From positions 24,907 to 88,906 of the forward strand of contig BEXV01000824.1 of the NCBI GenBank assembly GCA_003118195.1: DNA of 64,000 bases, in the 5' to 3' direction. Below the pieces are notes generated by a model, which was not told where the DNA came from, did no database searches, and worked only from the letters and a program-made list of their open reading frames with translations. Made by a program: the position numbers and the translations under genes. The stretch is from Hemicentrotus pulcherrimus. Its lineage: Eukaryota > Echinodermata > Echinoidea > Camarodonta > Strongylocentrotidae. Each line of letters opens with the position of its first letter. Position 1 is the stretch's first letter. Of this stretch, positions 29,401 through 61,200 are shown in pieces.

Positions 29401-32400
29401 AGAGGAGATGCTTAAAGTGGCACCAGAACTAAAGCAGGAGTTGAGTATGGCACAGTGCCTTGGTGAGCATCTTCCAACCACACTGCGAAATCCACAGTCA
29501 GCAATGACACTACTATTCAAGCCTGAGTGCATGGCATCCTACTTCTTAGATTCACTGACCACCACATTCTACTACAAAGCTGGAGCAGAGATGGTTCGAC
29601 AAGCAGTCCTCAAGGCTCTTGAGACAAAAGCCACTGTCAGGTTGCTAGAGGTCGGAGCCCGCATGGGAGGTCTTACCCATCACATTCTAGAACATCTTGA
29701 AGATCTATGTCTAGAAGGACGAGTTGAGTACGTATTCACGGACCTCAGCGTTGCTTTCTTCCCACATGCCCGAGACCACTTGGTCGACTACCCCTTCGTC
29801 AAGTATCAGCAACTAGACATCGAAACCGACATCGAGAGTCAAGGTTTTGTGCCAGGTTCAGTCGACATCCTGATCTGCTTGGATACACTCCATTCAACTG
29901 GACATCTCCAAGAAGCCCTCTACTTCATGCGGGAACTCATCTGCGACGATGGATGGATGATCCTGTACGAAGCAACAACTGTCAAGTTCATCGCAGAGGT
30001 GATCTTTGGTGCCCTTCGCCTATGCTGGGTCTTTGAAGATGACAGACCCGAATGTTGCTGGCTGGAGCAAAAGGAATGGAAAGAGGCGTTGGAGAACAAT
30101 GGGTTTGATGATGTTGTGGCTCTATCGTCTCCGAAGGAGCTCTTCCACAGTGTACTTGTCGGACGCAAGGCAGGAGGTGACAATGCTTGCATCAATCCAA
30201 AATCCACACCAATCACCACACGCAAGCAATGGCTTGTGGTGTCACATCCCGACAATGCAAAGTTTGCTGACCTTGTCAAGTCATCACTCTCGGGAACAGT
30301 GACATCTCTTTCATATGACGAGATCATGAAGGCTGATCTTGGCAAGTTGAAGGAAGACGGTTCCGTCATTGAGGCTCTCTTCATCTGGAATGTTGATCAC
30401 GACAACGGGTTCAAGGTACTCCTGAACTTCCTCCAACAGATCGGTGTGAATGTAGAGAATGTCTGCAAGCTGTGGATGGTGACCTTTGCCGCGACATCAG
30501 GACCCAGACCTATCAATGCAGCAGGTGCTGGGCTTGTTCATGCTGCTGCAAATGCCTGTCAGATCCCATTCGTTACAGTAGATATCCCGGAAGAAGTGAC
30601 AAATGGAGACAAGGTATGGGCTTCCAGACTCGTGAACACAATGCTAGGTAACAAGTTATCCGACATGGAGTTGGTTGTAAAGGATGGAATCGTTCTTACC
30701 CCAAGACTCACGAGGATGCAGCTCCCTGAAGTGAAGGTTAACGAGACCCCTTACTGGCAACTCACACAGGCTGTTGATCCCTTCAAGACAGAGTCATCAG
30801 TGGAGGATCTGGGCATTGCATACCAAGATGGGTTGGAAGTGGCCCCTGGAACAGTCCTTGTTAAGGTTTCAGCAGCAGGTATCAACAAGAGAGATGTCGA
30901 TCTCGCAAGGGGTAGCACAGTGCAGGAAGAAGATGCCAGTTCATTCGGCATGGAGTTCTGTGGTGTTGTGGAGAAAGTTGGAGAAGGAGTAACCACCGTC
31001 AAGCCCAAAGATGAAGTCCTTGGATTTGGCACACACTGCTTGGCATCATACACACTAGCTAATGCAGATCTTGTTGTCAAAAAACCAAAGAACTTGACTC
31101 CAGCACAGGCTGCCACTACCAGCATAGCCTTTGCAACTGCATACTACAGCTTAGTAGAAAGAGCTAACATAACAAATGGAGAATCTCTTCTCATCCAGGT
31201 GACAGACCCAGGATTAAGAGATGCAGCAGTACAGATTGCAAACCACGTAGGAGCTAAGGTAATCTGCTCCATGGACGATACAACTAAAGCAACGTCACTG
31301 AAGAAGATGGGGGCAATGGTTGTACCAACATCCTCATCCTCTTCATTTGTTAATGATGTTAACAATGTAACCAATGGAGCAGGCGTGGATGTTGTCCTGA
31401 ACTCTCTTCAGGGCAAGCAGATGGAGAAGAGTTTGGAACTTCTGGCTGCTGGTGGGCGCTTCTGTTCCATCACTGACTCCAACACTATCAACTTCAAGCT
31501 ACAGATGCGGTTGCTGCAGAAGAACAGGTCTTTGATCTCCTGTAACATTGAGAGCATGAATCAACACCAGAAACCGCTACTTCAGAGGATCCTGCGGAAG
31601 GTCACGGATCTCATGCTTACAGGTAAACTGAAGCCACTGGATGTTACTTCTCGACCCATCACGGACTACCCAACTCTGTTTGCAGATGAAAGCATCACCA
31701 ACGGTGGCAAGGTTGCCATCGAAATCCCATCAGCGTTCAAACCTAACAAGGTCATCTCAACTATGCAACTCTTCAAGAAGAATGCAACATACGTCGTCAC
31801 AGCTGCTGAGTCTGGTCTATCCCAAATCTTTGCTCGCTGGCTCTACAACAATGGCGCCAGGCACATAGCCATGTGCTACCTGACGGAAAGCGGAAAATCC
31901 AAGGCAAGCAGAACAGTTAACTACCTCACCAGAAAGGGTGCTGAAGTCTTTGAGTACTGTCACCAGCTTGACGTACGGGGCCCAGACGGTGGGATTGCAA
32001 AGATCTTCGGGGATCTCAAGAAAAGGAATGCTCCAGCTATCCGTGGCATCTTCTGTCTCGGTGGCTACCGACTTCCTGGCAAGGAGACTATGTCCGATGT
32101 CACCTACGACAGTCTCCAGGCAATGCTCTCTGCCAAGGTTCGTCCTGCAAAGTTGTCCCACATCGTGTCAGAAAAGATGGGACTCGAGCTGGACTACTTC
32201 TTCACCTTATCAAACGACGACGTTGCCTGGGGCAACCCATCCGCTGTTGCTAGCGTGACTGGAGACTCCTACCTTGAGAATTTTGCTCTGAAGAGGCGAT
32301 TGGAAGGCAAGCCTGCTCTCAACCTGCAGGTTGGAGCTCTCCGTGGAATCGACGCCTATGAGTTCGGAGGGCAGACAACTCTACCGGTGAAGGATGGAGA

Positions 32401-34140
32401 AACTAGCCTACATGTGGAAGAGTTCCTGATGGTTCTCGGCAAACTTCTCTCCTCTCCCGACACTCCGCCATGTGTCTGCATTACAAACCAGGTACGTCAA
32501 TTAAAACATATTACATCATAAAACATACAACGAAAGACTTAGGTGTTTATACATGTAAAAGACACTGAAATGTTTATAAAATAAAATAAACATTAATGAC
32601 AAAACAGAATTGAAAACCATTTTGTGAAGAAATTCATAATCCCGCACTTTTACACGCTAATTTCATAATAATGTGGTTCATAGAATACATTGCTCAGGGC
32701 AACTAATCAATAAAAAAAAAAACGTTTATTTGATGTTAAAAAGTATTAACAATGATAATTTCATACATTCGACAATATCTTTATACATAAAGTATTATTA
32801 GTATTTAATATAATCGAGAAAAAAAATGCTTGAAATTGATCCGAGTTGTACTGAATCTAATGATATTGAGTCAATTTATGATAACACTCTTTCTTCTCTT
32901 ATTATATTTGCCACTATAGGACTGGGAGTCTGTACTGAAGTTCTCCCACGACCACACCTTGAAGTTCCGCCATTTTGCAGGTGGAGAGCAGGTGGCCATC
33001 TCGGAGTGCAAACTCAGTCTTGAAGACCTACAGAAACAGGTAAAGCTCTTCCCCCAACTATTGTCTTTCAAATATACTGTGTTAGACTTTAGTTTGTGAA
33101 AAGAGACACACAGCTACCCCAAGGTGCTCAAAGCATTCAAAGAATACATTCCTACCAAGAACCAATTTACTACACCTGGGTTAAGAGTGGCCATTGTAGA
33201 TGAATGTTTTGTCAACGGACATCCGCTATACCATGACATCTCTACCTCATGTATTTTGTTTTCTAAGTGCGCGAGGGGTGCCGAGGACACTTACATAAAA
33301 TTGTTTGTGAGGGAATGTTGACACTTTCAGGGTGGAAAGTTCAAAACAGCCCCCCCCCCCCATAAAAAAAAAGGTTTTTAAAAAAGTAAAAAGAACCTCT
33401 AAATTATTCCCTGCGTTCTCTATAATATCGTAAGTACAATATATCTCTCAACAAATCATTTCACAATTAAGTACATGTAGGGCGGCGGTACGACACTAAC
33501 ATGCATTTAGGCTTCAAGGAATACACAATCATAGTACTGCAAATCTCAATGATACTAGTAATAACCACTTCTAAAGGAAATGGAATAAGCATACCAAAAA
33601 ACATGATTTAGACTTCAGCTCTAAGAAAATTATATTGAATGACCATTACTTACGTGTGCTATTAAAAGTATGAATTTTTGTTCTATTAAAAGTATGTTTG
33701 TGCAATTAAATAGCCTCGCTCCCTCCGACTATTTCTGTGTTTGAGAGTATTTCTCTTTCTCTCTGTCTCTAGCAATTGTCTTTGTTTCTTTCTCCTTTCG
33801 TAAAACCTCTTGTCGCTTACTTTCTTCTAAGGCAATACACTCTTCATGATATCTATTTAATTGCTTTCATGTTGCAATTAAATTACCATCTTGCTTCTTT
33901 TTATTGCTTAACTTACTATAGGTGAAGAACAAGCTCGGTGACCTGTTGTGTGTAAACCCTGACACCATTGACCTCCGTCAACCCATGATCAACTACGGTG
34001 TCGACTCCCTCATGGCCGTCGAGATGGTGACATGGGCAAGCCGTGAGCTCAGTGTGGTCATCTCCCAGCTCGACATCCTTGGCGGGATCACCACAGGAGT
34101 CCTCTTGGAGAAAGCTATCGACAACAGCGTCTGTATCTGA
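23391..34140 (+). CDS. Animal FAS-like type I polyketide synthase, complete, 2424 aa, KS-AT-DH-MT-ER-KR-ACP
   Basis: Coding exons are 23391-23445, 24235-25755, 26482-26679, 27330-32491, 32920-33039 and 33922-34140. All introns are GT-AG and phases agree throughout (7275 nt, 2425 codons). The start is the first ATG after an in-frame TAA in the same exon. KS (about 1-430) has C180 (DTACASG), H315 (EAHGTGT) and H353 (NFGHTE). AT (about 545-850) has S644 (GHSLGE) and H743 (AFH, malonyl type). The ACP serine is S2381 (GVDSLMAVE). The DH, MT, ER and KR domains are recognisable but damaged (see exon 27330-32491). No thioesterase follows. This is an iterative cytosolic enzyme that would condense malonyl units. 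Family members make echinochrome-type naphthoquinone precursors in urchin pigment cells (Pks1) or act in skeletogenic cells (Pks2). The dead reductive domains favour a Pks1-like product; I cannot settle the paralogue. Confidence 0.93.
24235..25755 (+). CDS. PKS exon 2: ketosynthase domain
   Basis: It encodes residues 20-525, nearly the whole KS and its linker. All three condensing residues are present (C180, H315, H353) with normal spacing (135 and 38 residues). Codon third positions are clearly richer in G/C than in the flanking introns. Confidence 0.97.
26482..26679 (+). CDS. PKS exon 3: start of the acyltransferase
   Basis: It encodes residues 527-591, including ICMIFPGQGQQYGNMG, the conserved opening of acyltransferase domains. 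The acceptor is ttgacccgtag and the donor aaaaat|gtaagt. A GAT/TTA-rich simple repeat lies just upstream in the intron. Confidence 0.95.
26816..26932. mobile_element. Diverged foldback element in PKS intron 3
   Basis: The left end aaaccatcataagtacaagtt faces gaacttgtacttaaaacgggtt. The intact relative at 35926-36044 shares these arms and the central acacgcgt..gaaa block. Confidence 0.7.
27330..32491 (+). CDS. PKS exon 4: one 5.2-kb exon with AT, DH, MT, ER and KR domains
   Basis: It encodes residues 593-2312 without interruption. AT keeps GHSLGE (S644) and AFHT (H743). In DH the usual HxxxGxxxxP reads R935...D939...P944, so the catalytic His and Gly are absent; the second-half Asp (LDACFQ, D1091) is kept. 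The MT motif I is LEVGARMGG at about 1364-1372, with its middle Gly replaced. The ER NADPH loop (GGVGxAA) is replaced by DPGLRDAA at about 1884-1891. The KR loop (TGGxGGLG) is replaced by TAAESGLS at about 2082-2089, and the KR Tyr position is Ser (S2233 in GNPSAVAS). The fold-level sequence of all domains is retained, so they may be structural. Confidence 0.96.
32920..33039 (+). CDS. PKS exon 5: KR-ACP linker
   Basis: It holds forty codons in phase 0 (DWESVLKFSHDHTLKF ... SLEDLQKQ), between KR and ACP. Acceptor ccactatag, donor caaacag|gtaaag. The sequence is not a known catalytic domain; it is inferred to be linker and the start of the ACP region. Confidence 0.88.
33110..33255. mobile_element. 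SINE fragment in PKS intron 5
   Basis: The stretch with cacctgggttaagagtggc and tgttttgtcaacggacat corresponds to cacctgggtgaagagtggc and tgtcttgccaaaggacatt in the SINE at 3041-3370, in the same orientation. Confidence 0.6.
33922..34140 (+). CDS. PKS exon 6: acyl carrier protein and stop
   Basis: It encodes residues 2353-2424. GVDSLMAVEMV carries the phosphopantetheine-accepting Ser (S2381). The protein ends SVCI after TGA at 34138-34140, with no thioesterase, so release needs another route such as cyclisation or a separate hydrolase. Confidence 0.95.
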   Translation: MKNKLGDLLCVNPDTIDLRQPMINYGVDSLMAVEMVTWASRELSVVISQLDILGGITTGVLLEKAIDNSVCI

Positions 34141-40207: not shown

Positions 40208-40279
40208 TTAAGGTTCTAGGATGCTTTCGTTAGGGCAGAACTCGGGCAAGGCATCCCTGATTTCTTCCACATTGGCCAC
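40208..40279 (-). CDS. LAMC1: Laminin gamma alternative terminal exon A (23 residues), most distal
   Basis: The acceptor gcatgctacag is followed by [16 protein letters not shown] and NESILEP, stop TAA at 40208-40210. The Glu is at Cys+7 with one residue after it. Of the four, its first half ([11 protein letters not shown]) is closest to the NLEDIRKTLP of human gamma-1. A possible poly(A) signal lies at 39952-39957. Confidence 0.85.
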   Translation of the reverse strand: MANVEEIRDALPEFCPNESILEP

Positions 40280-43200
40280 CTGTAGCATGCAATAAAACAA
40301 AAGAAAGCAAAGCGCAAAGGAAAGTGGTAAGTGAGGGAAGCAAACAAAACATTCAGAAGCATTTGAAAAGCAAGTGAACATGATTGCAAAGACTTTCAAG
40401 AAATCAATCTAGGGTTTTTTCCAATAGCCTCAAGCACCATCAACTTCAATGTGGTATATGATAGGGTTTTTATAGAATCGCCCTACATTTGATTTCTTGA
40501 AAGTCATTGCAATCATGCTGTTAATAAAGCAAAAAACAGGGAAGCCAAATGCATGCCCAAAGGTGGTTTGGGGTGTAAAATCTGACTGTCAATTTTTCAG
40601 AGACTTGTCAGCAAATCCCTATAGAATTAAGTATTCTATGCATGTTTTCAGATGAAAGTGTAAAGAATAGAAGTGGAATATTATATCGTCTGTTTGGAGC
40701 CAGACGGGCATTAACTCATATAACACAGATCTAATGCCCTTCTGGCTCTCAACCGACGTTACTATCCAATGAATGGTCGACCAGATTTTCCCATAATTGA
40801 TCGCATTTGTCAATGATCACAATATAGAATTCTTGAATTTCCTCATAAACATGGTGATAACGGTTCCATGATGCATATATTTTTTTTCTCAGTGCGAATA
40901 GCATAAAAGCTCAGGCATACTGTTCACTGAACAACATGAGCTTTGCTATACATAAATGCAGAAAATAGGATTGCACTGTTTATTTTGGGAATTGAGAAAA
41001 GTATGACCAGAAGCAAACAGAATTAATTAGAATTTCAGCACTGAAATGAATTTTCAGAGAGAAGCAATAGAAATGGAAGACTGATGAGCATGCAGATTAT
41101 TTCAATTTCTAGTCCTACAGTACCCAAATGAGAAAAGATCAATTTTAATGTGTGAATAAAAGCAGTTGCGGGAAAGAGCTAGATTGGGGAGGAAAAAATG
41201 AGGAAATGACACTCGTTTGCAAATAAAAAGCACCCTTGAAAAGAACACACACAAAACATTCAAAGAAAATGACTTTGAAGCAATGGCAATTATCAGGGAA
41301 AAAACTTGGCTGGCTAACTGCAAAGAAATAGGGGGTAAGCAGCTGTTCTAAATGAGAAGCAAACAAACACACAAACAAACAAACAAACAACTAAACAAAC
41401 AGTCTACCTAGACAAATTTTAAAAAAAGGGAAAAGCAAGAAAGGTTTAACAAGGATGCTGGCTGCATGCATGAGGGTTTCATCTTGTTGGCTCTAATAGG
41501 AACAGACATTGGAAAGAGTACTGTAAATCAGCCAATGACAGCAATGTTCAGAGTTCATTATGTTAAAGTTCAAAGTTCATCATCCCCTCTATAATGATGT
41601 TTTCAAATTAGGGTACATAGGGACGAAAGCTCTTAGTCAATGCCATAGCAATTGTCTTCACCACCATACAAATTAAATTGGTCTGATGAATCAAAGTTGG
41701 AAGCCATGCTTCTTATCCTCCTTAAGTGTCTCTCCAGTTAGTTTACAACTTACTTTGGATGCCATTTAATATTTATTATTTATGCAAAAACACCTACAGA
41801 TGTTCATATATAAAAATGAAACAGTAGTAATAATCTGCATTATAATACCATGCAGTACATACTCAGACCTCTTTAACAAATTCAAATTTCAAAACGTAAA
41901 CAATAGCACAATTCATACAGTTTTGTGGATGTACAAGAACATTTACAAAACAAACAACAGAGTAAACATATTTTTGAGTTTCTGGGACAGAGAGATCAGG
42001 TCTATTTCTCTCTAGGCTATATCCTAGTAGATACAGATGCGTTTTGGAGCACAACATAGCCAGTAAGAACTACAAATCATAAATAAGAAGTATAAACATG
42101 CCATCACGCACAAAAGGCACCAGAGGTATTATAGAAAGCTGAACTTGATAGAATTAAAATGTACAATGTAAATCGCAAACTATTTCGTCCAGACTGACCC
42201 ACGTCCCCAGAGAGAGGACCAGGGCTGTACACACTGAATGGGGAAGACTCTGCGTTTGATGCCTCCTATACACCCGTTTACCAATGTACCCAAATTTAGG
42301 TTGTTTCTTTACCAAAAGCACTGAAAAGCTACCTAATTCACCCCTTTTAAATGATAGAATCCGGGATAGATGGAAGCCATCATTCAGGGATTACCTGTTG
42401 CTATGTCAGGCAAACCTTTGACAAGAGTTTCAAGCCCTGAACAGTAACTCCTGATCGAAAGTTATGTAATAACTCTGAATACATTGAACACATCAGTAAA
42501 ACCGTCTTGCATAGGTGAACCAATTCTGTTTGACAATTAAAAAACACTCAACGCAGACCTAACACATTCAGTGCACTAGTTAGCCCTTTAGAAGTACGGA
42601 AAGGTTAGTTTTAGTGATAAAGATAATTTTGAAAGGGAGGGAGGGGTGTGTGTGTGAAGGGGAGGGGGGTGGATCAGGGGTCTGCGGGCGCTTCCTCAAG
42701 CCGAACAATGTTGGGACAGAAATTAGGCAAGGAATCTCGGACAGTTTCCAGCGATGCGACCTGTTAGAGAGAGAGAAATTGAGAGAGTGTTGGGACAGAA
42801 ATTAGGCAAGGAATCTCGGACAGTTTCCAGCGATGCGACCTGTTAGAGAGAGAGAAATTGAGAGAGAAAGAGAGAACATGGATGATGAATAACAAATGAG
42901 TGCAATGATGAAAAGTGCATTATAACAACATAAATATTGTGATATCACACAATAATTAAAGATAGTTATAAGTTGAGGGTGCAATAAATGGGTAATAATA
43001 AGAAAGACAGAATAGAAATGTTATGATAATAGAAGTGCTTTAAAACCAAAAATAATGGTTCAGAATTTTGTTTAAAATATTGTTTTCATGTAGCAATACC
43101 TGATTAAATCATTTTATGAGGCTATATTTTACTTTTTCGTTTAAGCATATAAGACCATTCTTTTAAATTTTGTTATAAAACTGATTTATTACAAACCTGT

Positions 43201-46200
43201 GTTTTAAGATCAATGCTTTAAGATTAGGCTAGGCACTACACTGCTTGATTAAAATCCACCACCAAATTAATACTTTAAATTTGATTTCCACCAAATCTTT
43301 CAACATTAAATCAGTATGCACAATGATATTTCATTCTACTTCATTTATGCAAGACATGACTTGTATGACTTGATATTACATCTACAAATGCATTTGAAAC
43401 TTTGAGGAACTTTGGAGGTGACCGTTAGTATAAACTTAAGCCCAGTTCAGATACAGAGCAGCAAAATCACTGCGGTTTTTAAAGACATAAAGTGCAATAC
43501 ACTTCACATTTCTGTGACCTGGGGGGTGTTTCACAGAGATCCTAAGTTGAACTTATCTCTAAGTTGGACTTAAAAATTATGGAAAGCCGTAGCGTCTTTG
43601 AAACTATTTTGTAAAAGTTATTTTAAAAGGCGTAACATGTTGATTCAAATCATTCATATTTTCTATCGTCAAGAAGATTTCATGTTCTTGATGTGAAATT
43701 TATATACAATCTTAAATACTTGATTTTTCGCTTTTGAATACATTTTATTTTAAGGCTACAAATGGCTCTCCATAATATTTAAGTCCAACTTAGAGTTAAG
43801 TTCAACTTAGGATCTTTGTGAAACACCCCCCAGGACCTTTGTTGTGTGCAGCTAATTGCCATTCATTTACATGTTTAAAAAAACGTGGCTACTCTTTGAT
43901 TGCATCGTATCTGAACGAACCTTAAGTTTAAACTAAGTATAAACCTAGTATGGTTTCGATCACGTTCTATCCAGGCAAGGTCAACTACATCTGTACAAGT
44001 ATGACATGACTATAATCTACAAGTGAGGTGATTAATTCCAAAAGGAGCTAAATCCATTTTTTTAACTTCAAGGGGAAAAAAAGAATTTGTACAGACGTCT
44101 ATGGAAGAGTGATATTAGAAGGTTTATGTTTTCATAATTTAGGTAAATCTTTTTCTTGAAAGACAGGTACTTACATTGTTAGTGAACAATGTTCTGATAT
44201 CATAACTCAATTTTCATTGAAAGTGGATTTAGCTCCTTTTGGAATTAAACTCTTTAAGTGATGAATGAAATGATAGGTCCTTTTCACCAAAGTGAAGGAT
44301 ATCTATTGGTAATAAGCTGGAGCATACGTATGTATGATCTATGAAGAGGATTAACACTGCTCATATCTGTTCTAGATGGCATATAATGGAAGGAAACTAA
44401 AGATCATTTTCACATTGAAAGAAAGTACTGCATGTCCCAATTCAATGACAAGATATTTTTTTCGAAGTCTCTTTTTTTTTTTTCTTCTTTTCCACCCTCG
44501 GTATATGGATAAATAATTTTGGGGCTTTGATGCGATATCAATCAAATATCTAATGGAGAGTAAGAAAATCAAGCATAACAATTGACAATCAAACACGTCT
44601 CACACAAGAGAAGAAGGAAGATAATTGATACCTTTGGGGGTTTTTTGTATATGTGCTTTTGTTACAAAGGTCTAGAACCACCACCTCCCCCACCCCCTCC
44701 CCTCCCCTAACAAAAAAGGAGGGGGGGGGGGCAAGAAAAGAAAAAAAAACTGGATGTTCAAAGAGAAAGTTTTCTTTCAAATTTCTTTTTCATAAATATC
44801 TATTTTGCCGAAACGATGTTCTATTATGAATATCTGCAATGTTAGATCACTTATATTTTCAATTGGAAATGATGTTGTAGTACATCTCTCCCCCTCTCTC
44901 TCTCTCTCTATCTCTCCCTCTCTCTCTCTCTCTCTCTTACTCTCTTTCAATGTAATAACTAAACATCTCAATTCATTAATTTCAGATTGTTAAACAGTAC
45001 TGTACGTCCCTTATCAGGGATCAACCCCAACTCATTGCAATCACCCAATGACTCTAAGTATTAATGCTACTGTAACAACAAAGATTGTTTTATCAAGGAA
45101 AGTTGTGAAAAAATTGACTACCTAGCGTAAGATCAGTCGTGACATCACACTACATTTCAATTCAAAATACATGACTGGCGTACCCTGTTTCATAAAACTT
45201 GCTATCAATGACAAGTTACTATAACTGTAATAAGCTACTCAAAACCCTGAATTTGATTGGCTGAGAGCAAATTCATTACAGAAATTTGGCACTTGTTCTT
45301 AATAAGGAGTTCTGTGAAACAGGGCCTGATCGTAAAAGAACATGCACATTCATATACTTCATGTAAATAACTGTCAAACACTTTACTGTAGCATCTACAT
45401 GTACGGTACATGAAGGACGGGTTGGAATGGGTCATTTTCACATCAATTTGAAAAGATGTATTGTTATTCTAGTTAACATGCCAACAAAAAAGCTTACTGG
45501 TGATCTCGTGAAAATGACATGTACATTTACATCGTGCAGTACAGTGCATATAGGTCATACCAATACTTTATACACACATACAAAGTTTGTACATGAAGAC
45601 ATACATTGTAGATTTCACACAAATACAGGGCGACTCAAAAAAAGGGGGAATATACAACACTTAATGACATGGGGTCCAATAAATTGGAGATAGACAAAAG
45701 GACATTCATTATCATATCTCTATATGACCTTGGGGTGTTTCTCAAAGATCTTAAGTTGAACTTATCTCTAAGTTTGACTTAACAATGCTGGAAAGCTGTT
45801 AATATCTTCGGAAATATTTTGTAAAGTTATTTTAAAAGGCATAAATATTGATTCAAATCATTCATATTTTCTATTATTTAAGAGATTTCATGTTCTTGAT
45901 GTGGAGTTTATAAAAAGTCTAAAATAATTGATTTTTTGCTTTTAAATATATTTTATCTTAAGGCTACAAATGGCTCTCCATAATTGTGAAGTCCAACTTA
46001 GAGTTAAGTTCGACTTAGGATCTTTGTGAAACACCTCCCTGGATTATGACACGCAAGTTGGGTAAGGAGATGAAAATACTAAGATGGACTGACTGTACTG
46101 AAGTTGTATCATCAAGCTATGAAACGTTCGCTACTTGAAATGAAATGAAGCTTTGTTAGAATCAAATGAAACTGGAGAAAGCAGCAACATGTCCATGTAC

Positions 46201-49200
46201 ATGTAGCCTAGACCTGTAAAACAAAGTTGGTTTTGAAGCTAGAGAGGAACAAGAAATTTCACCATTTGTATGATATGACATGGGATGCAGGCCACTTACA
46301 TGTATCTACCGGTATCTACAACATGAAATGTTTGATGTCAACAATCTTTTTTGCAATGAAGCTATTAATATGTTGGAAGGTTCTAAACTGCTACGATATC
46401 CTGTACCTACATATCTATTTACAATTTGGTTACTATCAAGCTTGGAGGCTAGGAATGTTCCTGCTATAAGCCTGGTTTCTCTCCCCGATATAAGCCCATG
46501 TAGCCATTTTCTTTTCCATAAAGCTCCTTTTCTCTCCCCCAGTACTACTACAGTATAACTCTTAAATTTGCATAAATGCAGTTGTTACAGGTACATATAC
46601 ATGTACTTGTATCTACATCAATACAGCTCCTGCTCTCCCTCTACTATTCTACAAAGCATATTCTTTCTATATTGCTACAATATCCCATTCTCTCCCTAAT
46701 TCTTCTAGAAGACTCCTACGTGTCTCAATATGAACACCTAGAAAGCTCACTGTATAATCCCAAACTGCTTGAAGGCTGTAGCTCTTTATCTAAATCCTTC
46801 AATCAAATTATTTGAACATATTTCAATCAGATTGTGTAAATAGATTACTGTGCATATTGCACAAGAATATATGTGAGTTATAATTACGAAGTGTATAGTT
46901 TGAGCTAATTATCCAAAATTCTCCGTAGTAATTCATTGTTCATTCTTAATAATTGATTTATTATCATAAATTATGGTGTATTAAACATTGCCAATCTCGA
47001 CTAGCTTTTGCTATTTTTTGGCTCCATTAAACCAAATGTACATTATTGTCATGCTGAAATACAATGTACATCTAAAATTTTGAGAATAGATGAAATGAAT
47101 GAAAACTATACACTGCTACAAAGCATCTGTAACTACATTGACATCCTGTCGCTCATTTTCTCTGCCTACATTTTCATGCACCTTGCTACAAAGCTCCTAT
47201 TCTTTCCCTTCTTCTTCTTCTTCATCTACAAGCTTCAAATCTTCAATCTACTTTTGCTTAAGAGCTCACATTCCTGAGGTTCTGTTTTATGTGTTTGGGG
47301 GGATATCCCCCCTCGATCCTGGCCTTACAGCCGGCGTCTCAATGCCAAGCTCACGAGGGCAAAAATTTGGTAGAGCATCTCTTATACGTTCCAAACTGAG
47401 CACCTGAACATGCAAGATGAAATAAACAATATCAAAAGATCAACCAAATAAAGAATACTTGCATTTACCTAATACTATCTTTTCCAGTTGCAATCAGATT
47501 TGTTACCATAAATTGTAACGTAGCTTAAGGAAACAGGGTGATGCATAAAAATCAAGGCTTTTCAATAAAAGAATGGGTCTTGCTAACCAATATTTAACTT
47601 TCACCTGTGTAGGACTTCCTAGCTATGGCAGCTAGAATACAAAAATGCATGTAGGTGATTTTTTTTTTNAGGTGAAGTAAATGGGTACCTGGTAGGAATT
47701 TATTCCTTGAAATGCTAGAGCGCCGTATGGCAGCCGTGCTAAAGCCAGGGTAATAATCGGGAACGCCAGGAGTTAAGCGCATTTGAACATGAACTTTATG
47801 GAAAATGCGCTATACAAATGCATTACTATTATTATTATTATTATGCTGTCTTTTGTCGAAAAACCATGGTTTGATATGTCACTGAATTTCTAAGATAAAG
47901 TACATTAAGCTCTTATCTATTTGCGCTCCATACTTATACACTGTATAATGCTGACCTTCATTCATTGTAGGAACAGGGGTGATCACAAACACTATTCATC
48001 ATTTGTAAACGCTGCTTTGTATACATATACACAGACAAACAGTACATAAGCATAATATACATTGTTTGTTAAGGGCCAAAAGGGAGCTTACTCATATCCT
48101 TCCATATTGAATTAATGCCTTTCTGGCTCTCAGCGGGCAATATGGGTTACATCACATACAAGCTGGGATTATATTCCTTTGGAACATTATTTTCTTTTCA
48201 GTAACTGGGTATACATACAAAACATGTATTTAGTTTGGGGGTAACATTACGCAGTGTAGCTGAACAGAACTATACGACTCGGGAGGGTGGGGTCGATTCA
48301 AGACACGATCAAAAGTCACAGCACTTTATCTGAAACTAGGCAATGGGAGTAAGGAAAGTAAGAGTAAAAGCCTATTTATTCATGGATATTCATGTGGAAC
48401 ACCTCATGATTAAATGGGGAGGGGGGAGGGATCGTACTAAAAGTAAGATCTAAATATATAGCAGCACTATAGAGTATCAAAGTATTGAGATTACATAATG
48501 CTAAAGCTGCCATAAGATGATGGATACTCACAATCTGGCTTTTTCAACTGGAACCCTTAACCATTGGTCCATATTGGGTGAAATACAGCTTTGCTAAAAC
48601 TCACGGCATAGCTAGAAAGGACCAAATCAACATTTCTGGTTGAAATGTGCAATGATATCGTTATCACCCTTGTACCCTGGTATTATTGTCAGGGAAACTT
48701 GCCCATGGTATTTTGTTGTTGTTCTGAAGTAAATGTACCTAAGCCTTATAGGTACATGTAGCACCAAGGATGTCTTATGCAATGGCAAACAACCTAATCC
48801 AGTATAACACCATGTGTGCTGCGGTTATTTTTGTTTATCGCAGCCAGCCCTTTTTTGTAATATTTTACTTTGATACTCTACATCTGTAAGAGGAAGGGGG
48901 AGTAAGGGTAAAAGCCAAATTTCAGATGAAAGCTAGTTTTTAAGCCACCTCAAGGGGTTCAAGAAGCACGCTGGAATATCGACATGAAGTTGGCACATGT
49001 ACATGTACGGTGATCAGTGATTGGTTCCTGTTCTAATAGGGTGAAAGTCACTTTGTCATGCTGGAGAGATCAAGGGTCAAACCTGCAACTCATCAAATCA
49101 TACCATATTGAGGGAGTGCTTGGTGCCAGATCATGTTTGTGTGGGTAGTGAGTTGGAACCAGTTTAGACTGGTTCCAACTTAGTGGGAAAGGGGCAGAAA

Positions 49201-50174
49201 TCGGGCAGTTTAGCAGCGATGAGCGAGAGACTTGTAACCTGTAGATAACCATGTATGGAAAAAAGAATGTTAGCCAAACACAATTTTAGCAACATCTCTG
49301 CCAGTCGCATGTCGCCTTTCTATGTGTGTTTTTACAGAAATGTCAGATCGGGTAACAGTAAAATGAGTGTGAACATTTCTCTTCATCGTAACATCAATAG
49401 CTGTAAGAAAAACAAAGATGATTTCGCATTCTCATGATCATTACGAAAGAATTCAAAAACAAAATTAACACTTGATCATTCACAATATTGATGAAAATTA
49501 AGAAAAGCCTCCTATTTTGAGAAAAGAACTTCATATCCTCTTAGATCCAGTAGGACAAGGATATTGTGTTAAAACTAGACAACTTTTATTGACATTTCAG
49601 TGCCTGTACTATGACAATGGTATCATATGCATGCTTCCTCAATCTTTAGCACTCCTTTATCGATAGACAGTTAATCACATGGTTGTTTTGGAAATGTCTT
49701 TGAGACTGTGCTTGTGAGATTGAATCAAACACTGTGCAAGTGATTGAAAAACAAGATGCTGTGCAGTGCTAACATTTACAAACATTAATCAACAAATGAA
49801 AGATTGGTAATAATTGATAACGGTGCAAAGTGAAATAAAGTACAGATTTAGGGTGATTCATAGATCCCTCAATCCTAAAAGTGTACATATAGGATAAAGA
49901 TTTTAAAAAGACATCACATCTTTGCATTTTCCAAAGATTGATTTGGTGAGCGGCTGATATTAAAATAGAAACATGGTCTCTGTTAAGACGACTCTATCCA
50001 TCTTTACAGTGGTACATGTACATGTAATTAAAGAATATTAAGTAATGCAACATTAAATAACATGTTTAATTAGAAAATATATAGAAGATCAATAAAACAT
50101 AAGATGATGTGAAATACATACACTGTATGGTAGATCCTATATGGACTAGGGTAATACAGAAAAGATAATACACT

Positions 50175-50208
<34 letters not shown>

Positions 50209-53200
50209 CTATACATAGCCACATATACAAGTACATATAGGTAGAAAATACATCATATATATATCTATAAATACATTGTATATAAATGTATTTGAAAAAG
50301 AACATCAACAAAAGAAAAAAAATGATGTAATAATGTGAAAGACAGACTGCCAATTTACTTTTGCGAAGAATAAATGATAATAATATAACAATAACAACAA
50401 TAGAAGGGTACACCCTGGTCTAATGGACGTCTTGATCTGTAAGAAAAGAGAAAAAAGGACATCAGCATGGCAATGAAATAGATGGAAAGGTTTAGGGTTT
50501 CTTACCTCCGCTCGTATTTCACTGAGGTCAAATTGATACGCTGAGATCCAGCCTGCTTGCTGCATGGCGTAAGCCCGTAGTTCATCCATGGTGTCATCTA
50601 GCCTGAGGTCAAAGGTGATGGTGGCGTTGACGTTGAGGAGTTCATCCTCCAGGTCCTGTAGTCTCTCAAGGTCTATAGAACCAGCACCATCTGAAGGGAG
50701 TGAATGAACCAAGGTGTTGGGTGTCGAGATGAGTGTCACTTTGGGTGTTACATTTGAAGTGGGTTTGATGTAATGAGAAGCTCATTTTAGGTGTCAGTCA
50801 TGAGTCAACTCTGGAGCTAACTGTCGTGTTTAAGTGGGGCTGTGTCAGGTTTTGAATTGGGTTAAGTTTGGCGTTAGTTTTTTACTCCCAGTTTTGAGTT
50901 GCACATACATTTGTGATGGGTTTTGATATGCTGCCAAGTTTGAGCTGGGTATCAAATAGGAATTGGATAAGTGTTGAATTTTGAAGCCTGCCAGGTTCAT
51001 GGAGCACCATCTAATAAAGATGAAGCCAACGGTTTGGTGTCAAACTGGGTGTCAATCTTAAGCCCCCATCACACCAACTAATTCTCACTTTGTTCTGAAA
51101 AATGTTGCCTAACTGGCTCAACCTGTGTGTGAACAGAGTTAAACTTGATATGAACTGACTGTGGATGGGGTACATTCACGATGGATGTATTGAGGACTGT
51201 TTATGAACAAACTAGGATTGTATTATACACATTATTCACAAATTCTACCCCGACCACAACCCGTTTTACGATTTTCTAGGACAGTTCTAGAACGTAGTGA
51301 GAAATAGTTTGGTGTGATGGGGGCTTTAAAGAGATTTGACTTGGGTTCGATCTGGTGCAAAGCTTGTGTCGGATTTGGAGATACATAGGGCGTCAAGTTT
51401 AAAATGGGTTGGATTTGGAATGAAAGAGGTCAGCTCTACAGAAAGGCCATACACTTGTCTACAGTGGTCACATCAATCAAACTTCTGGGTACACTCTGGG
51501 TACACTCACCTAGCTCTCCTTTTATCATCTGGAGTTGAGCTAGAGCTTCCTCAGCAGCTTGTAAGGCAGCACCGGTCACCTGCTTAGCAGCGTTTGCCTT
51601 CTCCTGAGCCTGCAAGTTAAATAGATTTTAAAAAGAAGGTTGAGTTCTAGTCAGGATGAAAAATATTTTGGGAACTTTTGTAATCCTATATAAGAATCCA
51701 ATATCATTATTATAATTCCAACGTGGAAACATACATCAATACTTGTTGTCAACTGTGATTGTGCTATAAGATGCCTCGGATCCCTCACAGAAGGGACCAG
51801 GACATCACATGATATGAAGATCTGGCTTGAGGTCATGAAGCAGAAGCCATCACACAGCTCCCAGATGGTGTGAAAGGCTTAGGTCAAGGTCAAGGTCAAC
51901 TGTATATGCCAAAACATGAGAACCCAATATTTTTATAATTATCACTATATTTACCCGATCTGCCATATTCCCATCGTCCTCTGCCTGGCCCTCGATGGCG
52001 TTCAGTCTCATCATGGTTTCCATGGCATCAGCAGCGAGGTCGGTTGCGCGGTCGTTCTGTTCCTGCGCCTCAAGCATGGTGGCTTCGGCGTCTGTCCTGA
52101 CCCCCCTGGCAGCCTGAGAGACAGAGCACAAGATCACAAGAGAACGAAAGTTACGAAAGGAAAGGGGAAAATGCTTGAAATATTCTGAATGCCAATAACA
52201 CACTAAGCCTATTTATGTCTTCTCTTCTCTTTAAAGAACTTCACTAGGAAAGGGTTGTGGTTATCATCCGACACTCCTGGGTCGAAGATGATTCAAAGGT
52301 CCCTTCAGTAAAGAGGAGATTAACTACCCAACAACATTTAATGAGGAGAGCTTGGTGCATTTCACATTTCTGTATGTCAAACATATTTGTTTAAACAGAG
52401 CAGCGAGTACACATGAGTGTTACTGTTGAGCACATATGTATGTCTTTTAAGGCTGTGAGATTGTGATGTCATTGCTTTTTTTACTCTCACTATTCATTTC
52501 CACATCCAAGATTTTTGTGGTTTGCTCTGTCATGTCTAAATGAGGCTTAAGACTCAAGAAGTTCTAAATTAGTCATTCAAAAATCCACCAATATATTGCA
52601 GCAAATGTATGAATGGAGGTTCTATTACACTTTCAGAGATATGGTAACATGACTCACCCTGTAGAATTATAGGCTCAAGATAACCTTGGCAGGGGTCTTT
52701 GTAAAATGTGTTCTACAAAAATTGTATCTTATATTCAAAGGGTTGAACAAATAGCTACCTCTGAGGCTAAAGTTGCATTTCCTTCTGCCATACTGGCATA
52801 GTCTCGTGCCTTCATGGCGTCGCCCTCTGCAGCTGCGATGGCATCAGATGCATTGTGGGCCGTAATGTTGGCCTGGTTGATCATAGCCTCGATATCAGGG
52901 ATTCTGAGCTTGGCATCGTCAGCTGCCTGCTTGCTATCTTCGATCTCTTCGTTGAATCCTGGGCAAACGAGAGATTATGGTCAAGCAATGTACAGGGGAG
53001 TGGTTCACAAAGACTGAGATCGACTTAAGTAGGACTTAAACTATGGCAGGCCAGTTATGCCACTGGCTGCTCTCACCATTGGTCTCTCAATTATGATTTT
53101 TAGGTAATATTTTTTCCTTCAATAATGAACTATCAAAAAAGGTAAATTCTGTAGATTTGTGGCCACAATTTGTACGTCCCTTGAGAAACCAATTAAATTA

Positions 53201-56200
53201 ATCAAACTATTAAACATTTACAACACTTGCTTGCTACATTGTACATCGTGTTTGATGCTAGCAATTTAAGAAGAGGAAATGAGCATAAAATTTCTTACAT
53301 TGACAACACAGTAAGAGATTCAAGTTCATTTTAGATTAAATAAAAATTCACAATTTGTTCAACTTTTCAACTAAGTTTCTAACCTTGTATTTGTTTCCAG
53401 AGACTTTGCATTTCAATTTAAAAATTTAGCAATATTAGAAAAATATTTTTGTTGCCAATTTGAAGAACCACCCATGATCAGTTTAGCCCCTTACAGTAAA
53501 TCCTGTCCTGAAATGTTTAATAACCTGATATTCACTATTACCTTGTAATACCCTGAGGATGTCTTTGGCTTCTTGTAGTGTTTCATCTCCTTTCCTCTTG
53601 GCTTCCAAGGCAATGGAACGAGCATTATCGGCCTTGGCCAGCAACAGAGCAATCAACTGTATACAAATAATAATATGAATTTTAAAGAAGAAAACATTTG
53701 TTTAGCACAATTATCAATTCTGTTGAATTTTATTGTTTCATCAATGGTTTTTATAATTTGTCAGACAATAATAATGAAATCGCTCTTATTCGAGAATGGC
53801 ATTGACAACAAATTTCTGTGAGACTTGCTTTTTCTGTTCATGTACATGTATCATGCCTAACTCCTAGCATGGATCAAACGATAATGCACAAACAAGACTG
53901 TAAGGAGACGCTGTGCGGGTGTTTAATACACATGTGCATAGATAGAGATAAATGGACCGCACTCTGGAATAAACAAAGTACTCACGTTCTCAGCAGCGAC
54001 GGCTTGGTCCAGCAGATCAGCGGCTGTTCTGGCGTCCTCTGCCACCTGGTCTAGAAGATCAGCATTCTCTCTCCTCAGAGCGTTGGCATCATCCATCAGT
54101 TGCCTTGCCTGCAAGGGCCCAAAACAAGAAAAGGTTATGTTGACATTCAAAGCAAGGAAATTGGTGTAGATATTGGACCCAATCTCAAATTAGCAAATAC
54201 ATTATATACCTTACATGTACATATAGGATGAAGCCTTATGGATGAAATAAAGAAAATAAAACATCAAACTGAAACTAAAACCAGATGGGTGGTCTTTCTA
54301 GACAGGTTCTACAACAAATACAGTCAAACCTGTCTATTAAGACCACCCAAGGAAAACAGGAAAACTGTTTCTTCTTAGAGGGAGACAATACAGATGGCCT
54401 TTATAGAGAGATGGCCGCTAAGATGGGTCTGACTGTACATGCAACGACTTACTCTGTAACTTATATCATTGGCTGCATCAAGGAGAGAATTGACATCAAT
54501 CGGCGAGAGGGGCATGTTGGCCTTGGTGAGTAAGCGAAGTGCCTCTTCTGCAGCCCGTTGCGCCCTCTCGAAGCATTCCTCAGCAGCTTGAGAAGCCTGG
54601 TTGAACAGTTCTTGGGCGTCAACATAACTGATGAAAGGAGATGGATGAAATAAATGAAATAATTCAAAGCATAATTAACATTATCAATGTCATCTGCATC
54701 ATCTTCAATTTTAATATCATCCTCATCATCAGGATTATCACTTCTTCAAGATCATCATTATCCTATAATACTATCTTCATAATCATCAAATTATTCTCAT
54801 CATCATAAACAGGAAAAATAATCCTTATCATAGTCATTACCATAATCTTTGAAAGAATGACATTAATCACCGTAATCATAAATACTGTCATCACTGATGT
54901 CGTCGCCGTCATCATCATCATCATCATCTACAAAATCAACTTCTCCATCACTATCGACATCATCATCTTCACCTTGTCATCAACACGACAATTTTCAAAT
55001 CCATCATCATTGACATCATCATCACTTTCAACATCATCCTCATCATCAGCCCATTTTCCTCCTCCTCGTCGTCATCACCATCATCACCACCCACATTTCC
55101 TCCTCTTTCTTTTCTTCCTCCTCTTCCTCCTCCTCCTCATTATTCTGCTAATGACCACTTACTTGCGCTCCACTCCTTCTACCATTGCCTCCAGGTCTCC
55201 ACCATCTCCACTGTCCCGTGCAGCATCCAAGGCCAGGTAGGCAATCTCTAGAGCTCTCGCTGATGTCTCCTCCACCATCAATGCCATCTCAGTGTGACTG
55301 CAGGGCACAAATGCAAAATAGCAATTATCATATCATATATCATTGTAAAAACAATAAAGCCACCTAAACTTGATACAGAAGTGAGACATGATCAAAATAA
55401 ATGCATTTAAAATGTGGGTGTATCAGGGAATACTGAGGGTTCCGTGAACAGACAGAAGAAACAAACTGATATGTACTGGACAAGCTGGATACAGAGATGT
55501 TGCTCAGAAAGAGTATTGCCAGAAGGAAACTGCAGTTTTTTGGCCATGTAGTAAGGAGAGGTGGTCTTGGAAAGTCCCTTAGTAACAGGAACAGTGGAAG
55601 CCAGACGAGGAAGAGGGAGACCTGTTTTTTCCTGGTTTAAAGACATCCACATATGGACAGGGGAAAAGATGTCAGAGGTAACGAGAGCAACAGCAGACAG
55701 AGAAAGATGGCGTAAACTTGAGGTGGCCACAGCAGCGCAGCTAGCGTCACCTGACTAAAGAAGGAACTTGATCATTAGAACATTCTCCTGATTTATCCCA
55801 TAAAACATGAACAAGACACGAGGGAGAAAACTGTCCAATAAATCATTCTTCCACACAAATATATCGCCTTCATATTTCATAATGTAAATAAGCTCGTAAT
55901 TATGATTTCAGTCAGATCTCTATAGGCTCTAGGAACCTTAATTCCACTTCTAGGTCTACACGAGGCATACACATGAAGGCTTTGATACATTCTAGCTTTG
56001 TACAACCAAATACTTTTACAACTAAGTACTCTCACAAAATGTTAAGTATAATGATTTTCATGACAATAAAACTTCCACGATATTCAAAGAATGTGTCGTG
56101 TTAATTGTGTCAATTGTTATTGTGAAACTTTGGCAAATCTGAACCACTCGCGAAATTTACCAAAATTTCATGCAATCAAAATCTCTGGTTTTACAATAAT

Positions 56201-58246
56201 TTCTTTTATTACTACAAATTGTATTCTTGGGTTTCAGAAAATATGACAAAAATAAATGAAATGCTTTCTCACTTAGGATATAAGTCATTATGACACACAT
56301 ATTTGAGCATAAGAAACAAAATTTACCCACAATAACTAGATTGCGAAACTTTCGCACGTGTGAGACACTTGCATAATTTGCATACATTTTGGTAAAATGT
56401 TCTAGTTTAACAATAGTACAATCTACAATGTAGTCATTTACAACTAATCTAGGTTTGCAGATAAGGGCTAGGGGAGAAGAAAGCAATTAGAATAAAGACT
56501 TACTTATCAGCGAGTTGCTTGGCCTCTCTGGCTATCTCTTGCATCAGCCTATCTTGAGCAGACATGTTAGCTGTGAGTCCCCTCAGCTTCTCCAAAAGTG
56601 CCCAACCCTCGTTGTCAAGGTATTCCTGTGCAGAAGGCAACATACGCTTGAGACGATCGATGATGGCATTCACCTCGGCAACATCTGAAATAACAAAGGA
56701 GATAAACACTTCAATTATGGGATGCTTGAACAAAGCTTTGAGCAGATAGGCATCACGGGCCATTCTGTGCAATGTTTGTTTACGGTACCGGTATTTGTTT
56801 TACCCGACTACTAAAAAATCATGTGTATGCTTGTAATTAAGCAAACAGGGGACTGACAGCTTTATGTCCTCTCCGAAGGACTTGGTAATGCCTTACCAAA
56901 GGGCACTAGCCCATTGCGTTGGTTTCGAACCCGGGACATACCACTGAGCTATGGCACCTCCTGAATGTGTGCTGTACGGTATATGTTCTATCAAAATATT
57001 TATGCAAAACTGAAGACTCCCTTGATGTGACCATCAAATAACAGTGCATCTAGTACATGTACATGTACTACTATCACTGGTCAAAGTCATATCAAAGACA
57101 TTTTTCATTCATGGATGAAATATGTGAATAATGTCAAACGTTGAACGGGACAAAATGCACTGAATCCCACTACAGTATATACTGTACCATGTACTCTTTA
57201 TAAGGCCCCTTCACATTTATTACTATATGCTCTGGTGACAATTTCTCCACAGGCAGAGTCATACAGTAACAGAATTCCTGGGAGAGATTTGGAATGATCC
57301 AAGCAATTCTGCAGGTTGAGACTATACAATTGACTAATGTATTACCATTGTTGGTAGCCTTGTCACGCTTGCTAGTTTGCACGTGGTATTTTCTTAAATA
57401 TGAAATCCCTGATTTTTTTTTATTAGCACCAGTCTGCAAACAGGGTTGTGTCTGATGTGTGAGACTATGGCGAGTGCATGGTCTACTACATACCATTGGC
57501 TCTGTACTTAAGCTGCTCAGCAGCCAGAGACTGGGCTAGCTAGGGTCTGCTCAAGAGTTATGAAAATTGTGTTTAAGTGTCAGATCAGAGTCTGTGCATT
57601 CAGACTACATGTATAGAAAAATAGTAAGGGCATTATGCACTGGTGAAAACCCTGTTTGGAATATGTACTTTCGATTAGGCCAGAAAGATTTCAAGACCTT
57701 AAAGCCCCACTGTACTACTGTACATATGCTACTTGGGCCCTCTATATAGTAAACAATGCCTGATCGGTGCCTGTTGGTCACCCATGATACCAATTTTCTT
57801 AATTGCAGAAAGGTCTAATCCCCACTAGCCAAACTAGTACAGACGGGCTTTAAATCAAACGCGACTTTCTATATGACAGGGCCAAAATATTTACATAAGC
57901 CAGGGAGAGGGGTGGGTGGGTGTGTCATACTGACCTTGTTTGGCAGCCTCTGTGACTCCATCTGCCTGGTTGATCTTAGCCCTGATACGAGCTAAGGCAA
58001 GTCTGAGATCTCCTAGATCATCCTTAATGGCGTTCAGATTATCGGCTAAGGTACGGTCCTCGGCTGAAAGATAATAAATTGGGTATATTGTCAACATCAA
58101 CATCGTCGTCGTCATCATCATCATCTTTGTCTTCATCATCACCATCATCATCATCACCATCTTCATCACCTTCATCTGATCATCATCGTCTTCATCATCA
58201 TCGTCGTCATCATCATCGTCGTCATCATCATCATCATCATCATCCC

Positions 58247-58287
<41 letters not shown>

Positions 58288-61200
58288 CCATCATCATCAT
58301 AATAAACATCACCATCACCATCAGCATAACCATCAGCATCTTTACAAATATATCACCCCTACCAACAAGAAAATGTGATCTCATTCCCAACATATTATCA
58401 TCCTTCACACCATCTCCCATTGCCAGCATCATCTTTATCACCACCAGCAATTGAGATATCAATGAAGTCCTGTATCACCATCATTAACATCAATGTGACC
58501 ATAATCATTTTTAACATTACTGGACTAAACCCCAATCTTTCTTTCCTTTCTCTCGTCCATCAATCCATTCATCACTCCATTGTGATCCATTTTTGAGTAT
58601 CTAAATTTCATTTTGTACATAATACAGTCAAACCTGTCTATAGCGCCCACCCAAGGGAAACACAAAAAGTGGCCTTTGTAGACAGGTTCCTTTAGTACAT
58701 GATTCAATGAGAAACCATTTTCAAGGGAAACAACAAATGTGGCCTTTGTAGACAGGTGGTCTTTGTAGACAGGTGGTCACCAAAGCAGGTTTGACTGTAT
58801 CTTAATTACTGTTCCTTGTATGATTGCTATGATTTGTATGTTTCTTTTCTGTTGTTAAAGTGCTCTGATCAGTTTGTCTGTAATAGGGCTCAATAAGAAT
58901 CAATTATTATTATTATCATTATCTCAATGATCTCTCACCTGTCACTCTCTGAGCGTCGTCAATGGTCTGATTTAGGAGCCCTTCAAGCTCCCTCAGTCGC
59001 ATCTCAAAGTCTGTATCGTTGATGACAGTGGGGTTGCTGGAGATCTGGTTGATCTTGTCCCTCAGGGCATCCAGGTTGAGGCGATGCACGTTCAAGTTAT
59101 CCCTCACCAGATTGTAGCACTCGGGGCAGGCTGTATGGGGGAGGGCGAAATGAAGGATGTGAAGTCAAAGGTTAAAGGCATCGTTTAACATTGTTAAATC
59201 TGAGATGCATGGCCCTAGGTGTCATAAGGGTCTGTGATATGGTGTAATATTGAAGCCCTAAAATAATTGTGCTTCAAAATGATCATAAAAGTGTCTCCAA
59301 AAAAAAAAAAAAATTTTAGTGAGTGACCGGTTTTACCATACTCATTTCCCCCAATAAGACTGTAGTGTTATCAAAACCAAGAAAAACAGTTTGTGAAATT
59401 TTGATTTCCAATCATAAGTATCTTGATCATTCGACAGGCAATTGGCACGTAAAAGTCATGGAATTCCTGACTGACCTAAAGGTTTATAATTATGATTGCA
59501 GCATGAGCTAAATCCAAGATTTTGTTTAGAATCTCAGGCAAAGATACCCAATCCCTTTAAAGGAACAGGTTCGAAAGTTTCCAAGATCATAGAAGATCAT
59601 AATTTGCTGACACCAGACTTGGTAGAAATACTATTAATGGGTGTACAGGTCTGCACACAGCAAACCCATAGTCCAATCAAGAAATCCTCCTAGTCTCTAG
59701 AAGAATCTTCGGGTGATGGAAAAGTAATATAATGAATTTACCAAATCGTGAATGGGTGGAAATGGCAGAGCGTTGCTTAAAGCCTGTTGGTCATACAACT
59801 GCAGGCTAATCCTGGTGATTGACAACATCTGTTATTGGTTTAATACCCAGATGGTGTCAAACTCCCCACGAGAGCATACTTCTATGAGTCTTTCAAGTTT
59901 CACTTAGTTAAAAGTAAAGTGTAGTCTAGTTTCAAGTAAGGTTAATGATACAGAGGTAAGTAATTTTAATATGAGAATACTTCCCAAAGAAGAGACACTG
60001 GACTTATCTAACAATGAAATATTTGATTTCAACACTTCAGTCATGATAAACATTCATGAATTTAACCCTATTTCTACAGCACCTCCAGCCATGGAACATG
60101 AACGTTCTGCTGTGCTGTGATTTGTTTTCCTGGGATGCTGTAGAATTAGGGTTAAAGGCAGATAAGGTTCAGGTCAATTTGATGTTGCAGTACTTACGTA
60201 TGCAGCCCAGGGCAATGTTGTAGAAGTTCTCCTCACAGGAATCACACTTGTCACCGATGACTCCTGGCTGGCAGTTGCACACACCGTCGTCTGTGCAATT
60301 GGCGTACAGGGATCCTTGGGGATTGCATTCACATGCTACGGAGGGAAACAGAAACGGTTTATGAGAGTCTCTGATACACAAAAGGATTATTTTAAAAAGC
60401 AGATATGGATATTAAATTTATAACTCTCAATGGCATTCCTCCAAACGTAGCAATGTATATTAATGCTTGTCAAAAGACATTAGTGGCATGTCTGGGATCT
60501 AACCCACAACCTTTTCATAACCATTCACGTTTAAAAGGATATCAATGAAACATTCTTATACACAACATAAAAATTTATTACGTCAGTTTACTAGATGAAG
60601 AACTTACGAGTACATCCTTCTACAGAGTAGTCATAATGGTCGTACTGGCACTGGTCACACCTTAGACCATCCACTCCCGGCTTGCAAGGGCACTGACCGC
60701 TGCGGATGTCGCACTGGTCAGACGTCGACCCGGTGCTTTCACAGTAGCAAGGCTCGCAGCCACGCCCACTGTCGATGTTCCAGTAGCCGGCTTCGCATTC
60801 GCTGCAGTCACGGCCGGTCACGAAAGGCATGCAGCTACACTGGCCATTGGATTGGTCACATTCGTTACTAGTCGAGCCACTAGCGTAGCAGTTGCAGGCT
60901 GGAAAGTTAAAAGAGAGAGGGAGAGAGAGAGTAGAATCCCAATGTTGCATGAAAGGTAATATTTCAAAGAGTATGAGAGAGAGAGAGAGAGAGTAGAATC
61001 CCAATGTTGCATGAAAGGTAATATTTCAAAGAGTATTATTCAAACTATTTTACATTAAGTTTGTAGCGTTTTAGTATAAACTTTAAGAGACATTTTATTT
61101 TGTCTTTAGATCAAGAATGAATTAAATTTCGAAAATTGTATTCAAGCTGAAAGTGTGAAATTGCTAGAAGATTTGAGTTCATTCCTCTTGCAGAACATTT

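Follow-up and report, generated by a model that had tools for sequence, protein, structure and literature searches.

The laminin gamma locus of the sea urchin Hemicentrotus pulcherrimus raises the question of whether a single gene can supply the gamma chain with several alternative C-terminal ends. The window, i.e., the whole stretch of 64,000 nt that was analysed, carries on its minus strand the C-terminal part of this gene, followed by four candidate last exons (E1–E4).

The minus strand encoded a sea urchin laminin gamma chain, in which 19 exons of consistent phase gave a continuous translation of a 1029-aa partial core (Table 1). The characteristic elements of a gamma chain were present, namely laminin EGF repeats, a laminin IV domain, a coiled coil, and the LPxxC end; the model does not reach the N-terminal LN domain. 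The last shared exon matched human laminin gamma-1 in the PDB (5xau_C, E 0.00022), and its GSIDL..RAE stretch was identical to the Diadema and Lytechinus proteins at 38/59 and 48/59 residues, respectively. Of 41 homologues, the closest were those of Lytechinus variegatus, at 83% identity, and of Diadema antillarum, at 65%. The assignment to laminin gamma made in the preliminary description was thus borne out by the sequence, the Pfam domains, the PDB match and the related proteins. When the 414-Mb genome was searched with the C-terminal 587 aa of the gamma model, all 12 matches fell within this locus, so no second gamma gene was detected genome-wide at the sensitivity of that search. We also observed a type I polyketide synthase on the plus strand (24225-25772 and 27290-32521), with KS, AT, DH, methyltransferase, ER and KR domains recognised by Pfam, which converges tail to tail with the laminin gamma gene.

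Table 1. Coordinates of the laminin gamma exons, the candidate terminal exons and associated features (window numbering).
Feature	Position	Strand	Basis or remark
Upstream laminin gamma exons, 17 in window	50506..63847	-	In-phase translation; Pfam EGF_laminin, Laminin_B, EGF_LMN_ATRN
Two further laminin gamma exons, outside window	64997-65780	-	In-phase translation; more N-terminal exons exist upstream of the model
Last shared laminin gamma exon, coiled-coil end ...FDLSEIRAE	50506..50690	-	Phase-0 donor gtaagaaa at 50505
E1, terminal exon, 2-residue tail after Glu	49164..49238	-	AG acceptor, phase 0, own stop
E2, terminal exon, 16-residue tail after Glu	47287..47403	-	AG acceptor, phase 0, own stop
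RGD codons, E2 tail	47305..47313	-	Translation; overlap palindrome
E3, terminal exon, 6-residue tail after Glu	42674..42760	-	AG acceptor, phase 0, own stop
Exact 79-bp tandem duplication, 2.0 copies, 100%	42709..42866	-	Covers E3 acceptor and first part of E3
E4, terminal exon, ancestral-type end, 1-residue tail after Glu	40208..40279	-	AG acceptor, phase 0, own stop

The shared donor reads GCGGAG/gtaagaaa, with 50506 as the final exon base and the phase-0 intron starting at 50505. Each of the four exons behind it began with Val in phase 0, continued with LP[D/N/E]FCP and a hydrophobic residue and Glu at Cys+6 and Cys+7, and closed with a stop. A single donor followed by four in-phase terminal exons, all with acceptors and stops, has the predicted layout of alternative last exons. 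In the position of the donor, and base for base in the acceptors, phase, motif and stops of the exons, we agree with the preliminary description; its tail lengths of 1, 2, 6 and 16 residues also match ours if its letters A–D follow ascending coordinate.

Among 2928 AGs, the acceptors of E2, E3 and E4 scored 10.74 (rank 8), 9.8 (rank 19) and 6.97 (rank 72), and the weakest of the four, that of E1, scored 3.95 (rank 249). By leave-one-out scoring, the 19 acceptors of the gene itself spanned 0.0 to 11.6, a range that includes all four. The use of E1–E4 as internal cassette exons was considered but not favoured; the best donor within them (E2, after 47355) scored 4.3, near the bottom of the gene's own range of 3.3-10.8. 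The hexamer AATAAA, common in this AT-rich DNA, was located 784, 325, 897 and 251 nt 3' of the E1, E2, E3 and E4 stops, respectively. Two copies of a MITE-like element of ~315 bp, with inverted arms of 63-71 nt, sit between E2 and E3 (43518-43834 and 45732-46043); they are 2.2 kb apart and about 86-88% alike.

To assess a chance origin of the four exons, we took the 49,868 nt that follow the donor on the minus strand and shuffled them 1000 times at the dinucleotide level. The strict motif occurred four times in the real sequence and in none of the shuffles, a figure that is descriptive because the motif was derived from E1–E4 themselves. The looser motif LPxxCxxxxx[ILVMF]E, which also fits human gamma-1, gave 4 observed matches vs 37 in 1000 shuffles. 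When an AG exactly ten codons upstream with no intervening stop was added, the comparison became 4 vs 1 in 1000 shuffles, which makes a chance origin unlikely; with the initial Val included as well, the shuffles contained no match. When 118,906 bases of the 141,521-base contig (~13 kb of them an N gap) were scanned by regex in six frames, no further full terminal exon of this kind emerged, and the additional hits were a partial E3 copy at 42818 and scattered looser-pattern matches that we judged to be chance. One more candidate, at 50436, has a strong acceptor (10.5, rank 10/2928), but contains neither LPxFCP nor Glu at Cys+7 and was treated as noise. The ORF opened by this acceptor (50436-50302, minus strand), 69 nt behind the shared donor, is unrelated to the terminal motif.

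The four exons have diverged extensively from one another; in pairwise comparisons, identity was 30-39 of 69 at the nucleotide level and 10-13 of 23 at the amino acid level. Synonymous sites were saturated, leaving dS undefined in 6/6 exon pairs, and dN was high (0.40-0.81). Even at the 10-13 residues shared by a pair, different codons were used in 5-9 cases. Despite the synonymous saturation, the phase, LPxFCP, Cys, hydrophobic residue and Glu were retained in all four exons. The proposal that selection rather than decay has shaped the array is supported, as Cys and Glu persist in 4/4 exons while dS is beyond measurement. At the level of sequence, these data support an old duplication of the terminal exon that appears to have been kept under constraint.

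The ends of related proteins were compared with those of E1–E4. The Lytechinus variegatus model (P0001) ends in an E4-type exon (21/23 residues identical to E4). The end of the Diadema antillarum model, VLSLTLVRDSLPDFCPNLNELEPI, shares 15 of 23 residues with E3, 13 with E1, and 12 with each of E2, E4 and the Lytechinus end. Its V-x-S-L start was unique among the 32 motif-bearing homologues and is common to E1–E3; the usual residue at that start position is N (25/32 homologues). We assigned the Diadema end by parsimony on 23 columns, using eight ends and 10,395 trees. The single shortest tree (47 steps) paired Diadema with E1 inside the E1–E3 group, and the best placement with E4 took 49 steps. 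Across 500 bootstraps, the position within E1–E3 was the sole best in 269, tied in 224 and absent in 7, and E4 alone was never best. The BLOSUM62 sums (75 for E3 and the Lytechinus end, 68 for E4, 66 for E1 and 60 for E2) did not separate the classes. With moderate confidence, the Diadema end belongs with the E1–E3 type, and the terminal-exon duplication would, at the same strength, be older than the Diadema–Lytechinus split. The comparison supports the view that urchin gene models use more than one exon type, E4 in Lytechinus and the only moderately assigned E1–E3 type in Diadema.

FCP was found in the four echinoderm-like homologues P0001-P0004 and in 0/28 of the other motif-bearing ones. 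P0003 is closest to a sea cucumber; the sea cucumber ends P0003 and P0004, from proteins with an overall identity of 76% whose differences lie chiefly after the Cys, were considered as isoforms and read instead as coming from two species. A homologue search from the alignment of the isoform C-termini yielded 2391 candidates, none under E 0.001, and with the Diadema coiled coil as query only P0001-P0003 were returned. The homologue records are 90% clusters, that of P0001 having seven members, and further isoforms may be contained in such clusters.

The residues retained in E1–E4 have assigned roles in human laminin-511. According to PMC8241838, gamma-1 Cys1600 is bonded to beta-1 Cys1785, Glu1607 (E1607) reaches the integrin MIDAS, the C-terminal carboxylate of Pro1609 faces alpha-6 Asn189 (N189), and integrin affinity drops when one or two residues are removed from the gamma-1 end. 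In mouse, changing the Glu of the gamma-chain tail to Gln is lethal just after implantation (PMC6238537). The spacing of seven residues between Cys and Glu (Cys1600-Glu1607 in human gamma-1) recurs in 4/4 exons, as the preliminary description had claimed. Moreover, the vertebrate gamma-1 C-terminus has the same LP-x-x-Cys, the hydrophobic residue and Glu at Cys+6/+7, and a short tail, and the PDB alignment to human gamma-1 is gapless. However, vertebrate and other retrieved homologues have one end per protein record, whereas the urchin gene has four. Only E1 places the C-terminus two residues after Glu, as in human gamma-1; the distance is 1 in E4, 6 in E3 and 16 in E2. Among the 32 motif-bearing homologues, a tail of one residue was found in 20, of two in 8 and of six once, and the E2 tail is longer than all of them (range 1-6).

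We propose that the terminal exon was tandemly duplicated long ago, giving rise to four alternative last exons. The shared donor at 50506 would be spliced to one of E1–E4, each of which has its own stop and presumably a separate poly(A) site. All forms would retain the beta-bonding Cys and the integrin-site Glu (roles taken from human laminin), and the forms would differ in the short stretch around Glu and in a tail of 2, 16, 6 or 1 residues. E1 and E4 would be near-canonical; E2 and E3 would displace the second (carboxylate) anchor, and E2 would add RGD. Since the human C-terminal carboxylate is a second integrin anchor, the choice of exon would tune integrin affinity or specificity. The data directly show the exons, their frame and motif, the single locus, and relatives whose models end in different exon types; for this animal, we infer the splicing choice, the poly(A) use and the integrin effect.

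Two of the exons have additional features, which, like the acceptor at 50436, do not appear in the preliminary description. The RGD of E2 might address RGD-binding integrins. Nevertheless, the motif may be incidental, because its codons overlap a short palindrome, GGGGGATATCCCCC (47298-47311), which has a single occurrence in the window at <=1 mismatch (0.01 expected). The tandem copy at E3 may have arisen by genuine recent duplication, or it may be an allele or an artefact of the assembly. When E3 is read from the first-copy acceptor at 42839, Cys+7 is Ser and not Glu, and splicing to that acceptor may remove the Glu of E3. The earlier claim that Cys and Glu are found in all four ends therefore stands for E1–E4 as listed in Table 1, but not for E3 entered through the first duplicated acceptor.

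We consider an array of alternative last exons that varies the integrin-contact tip, with at least two ends in use, to be the probable reading of this locus (roughly 0.78). Several observations weigh against it, namely the weak acceptor of E1, the duplication at E3, the high dN between the exons, the homologue search with the C-termini that found nothing under the threshold, and the few columns behind the Diadema assignment. That all four ends are used in this species is slightly favoured. It is conceivable, although rather unlikely, that the only gamma gene found switches integrin class by its last exon, with E1 and E4 addressing laminin-binding integrins, E2 addressing RGD-binding integrins, and the duplicated E3 acceptor producing a Glu-less, integrin-silent form. 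If this were true, splicing would give urchins what vertebrates obtain from several gamma genes.

Use of E4 alone, or of E4 and one other exon, with the remaining copies being still undecayed relics of tandem duplication, appears unlikely. E4 is of the ancestral type found in the Lytechinus model, the E1 acceptor is weaker and E3 carries the duplication, all of which suit such relics; yet copies out of use would be expected to lose their frame, acceptor, Cys or Glu, all of which are intact in 4/4 exons at synonymous saturation, and an E1-type exon is the most likely end of the Diadema model. It is very improbable that the extra exons come from another transcript or gene, or from an assembly artefact such as collapsed haplotypes or misjoined copies. 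The exact 79-bp copy at E3 and the N gaps in the window and contig could be taken as signs of misassembly, but E1–E4 differ at the codon level. Because 30-39 of 69 nt are identical, E1–E4 are not haplotype copies, a reading also opposed by the genome search, which found gamma exons at this locus only. An origin in another gene is opposed by the agreement of E1–E4 in strand, phase and gamma-specific sequence, by the failure of that search to find gamma exons at any other locus, and by the neighbourhood, since the polyketide synthase, on the opposite strand, is the one adjacent gene recognised on this side.

The preferred reading, alternative last exons at the gamma-chain tip, has counterparts in other genes. 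In LAMC2 transcript variants and in tropomyosin, alternative last exons lead to different protein ends, as proposed for the urchin gene. In the short LAMC2 form, however, the end of the coiled coil is lost and not encoded anew, whereas the urchin exons would re-encode the tip.

Vertebrate gamma-3 is without the C-terminal integrin Glu, according to the review PMC11260871. The integrin Glu is thus varied in the vertebrate gamma-1/gamma-2/gamma-3 family by separate genes, whereas in the urchin it would be varied by last exons at one locus. In the literature searched, a search with most subscription papers outside its reach, we found no account of echinoderm laminins with alternative gamma ends, and none was seen in passages of PMC8241838, PMC6238537, PMC6744579 and the review PMC11260871.

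Human laminin enters the metal site of its integrin with the tail of the gamma chain. If one gene can end in four such tips, laminin–integrin affinity could be set per tissue via splicing, and the four natural tails would form a ready-made test of how binding depends on the residues that surround and follow the Glu.
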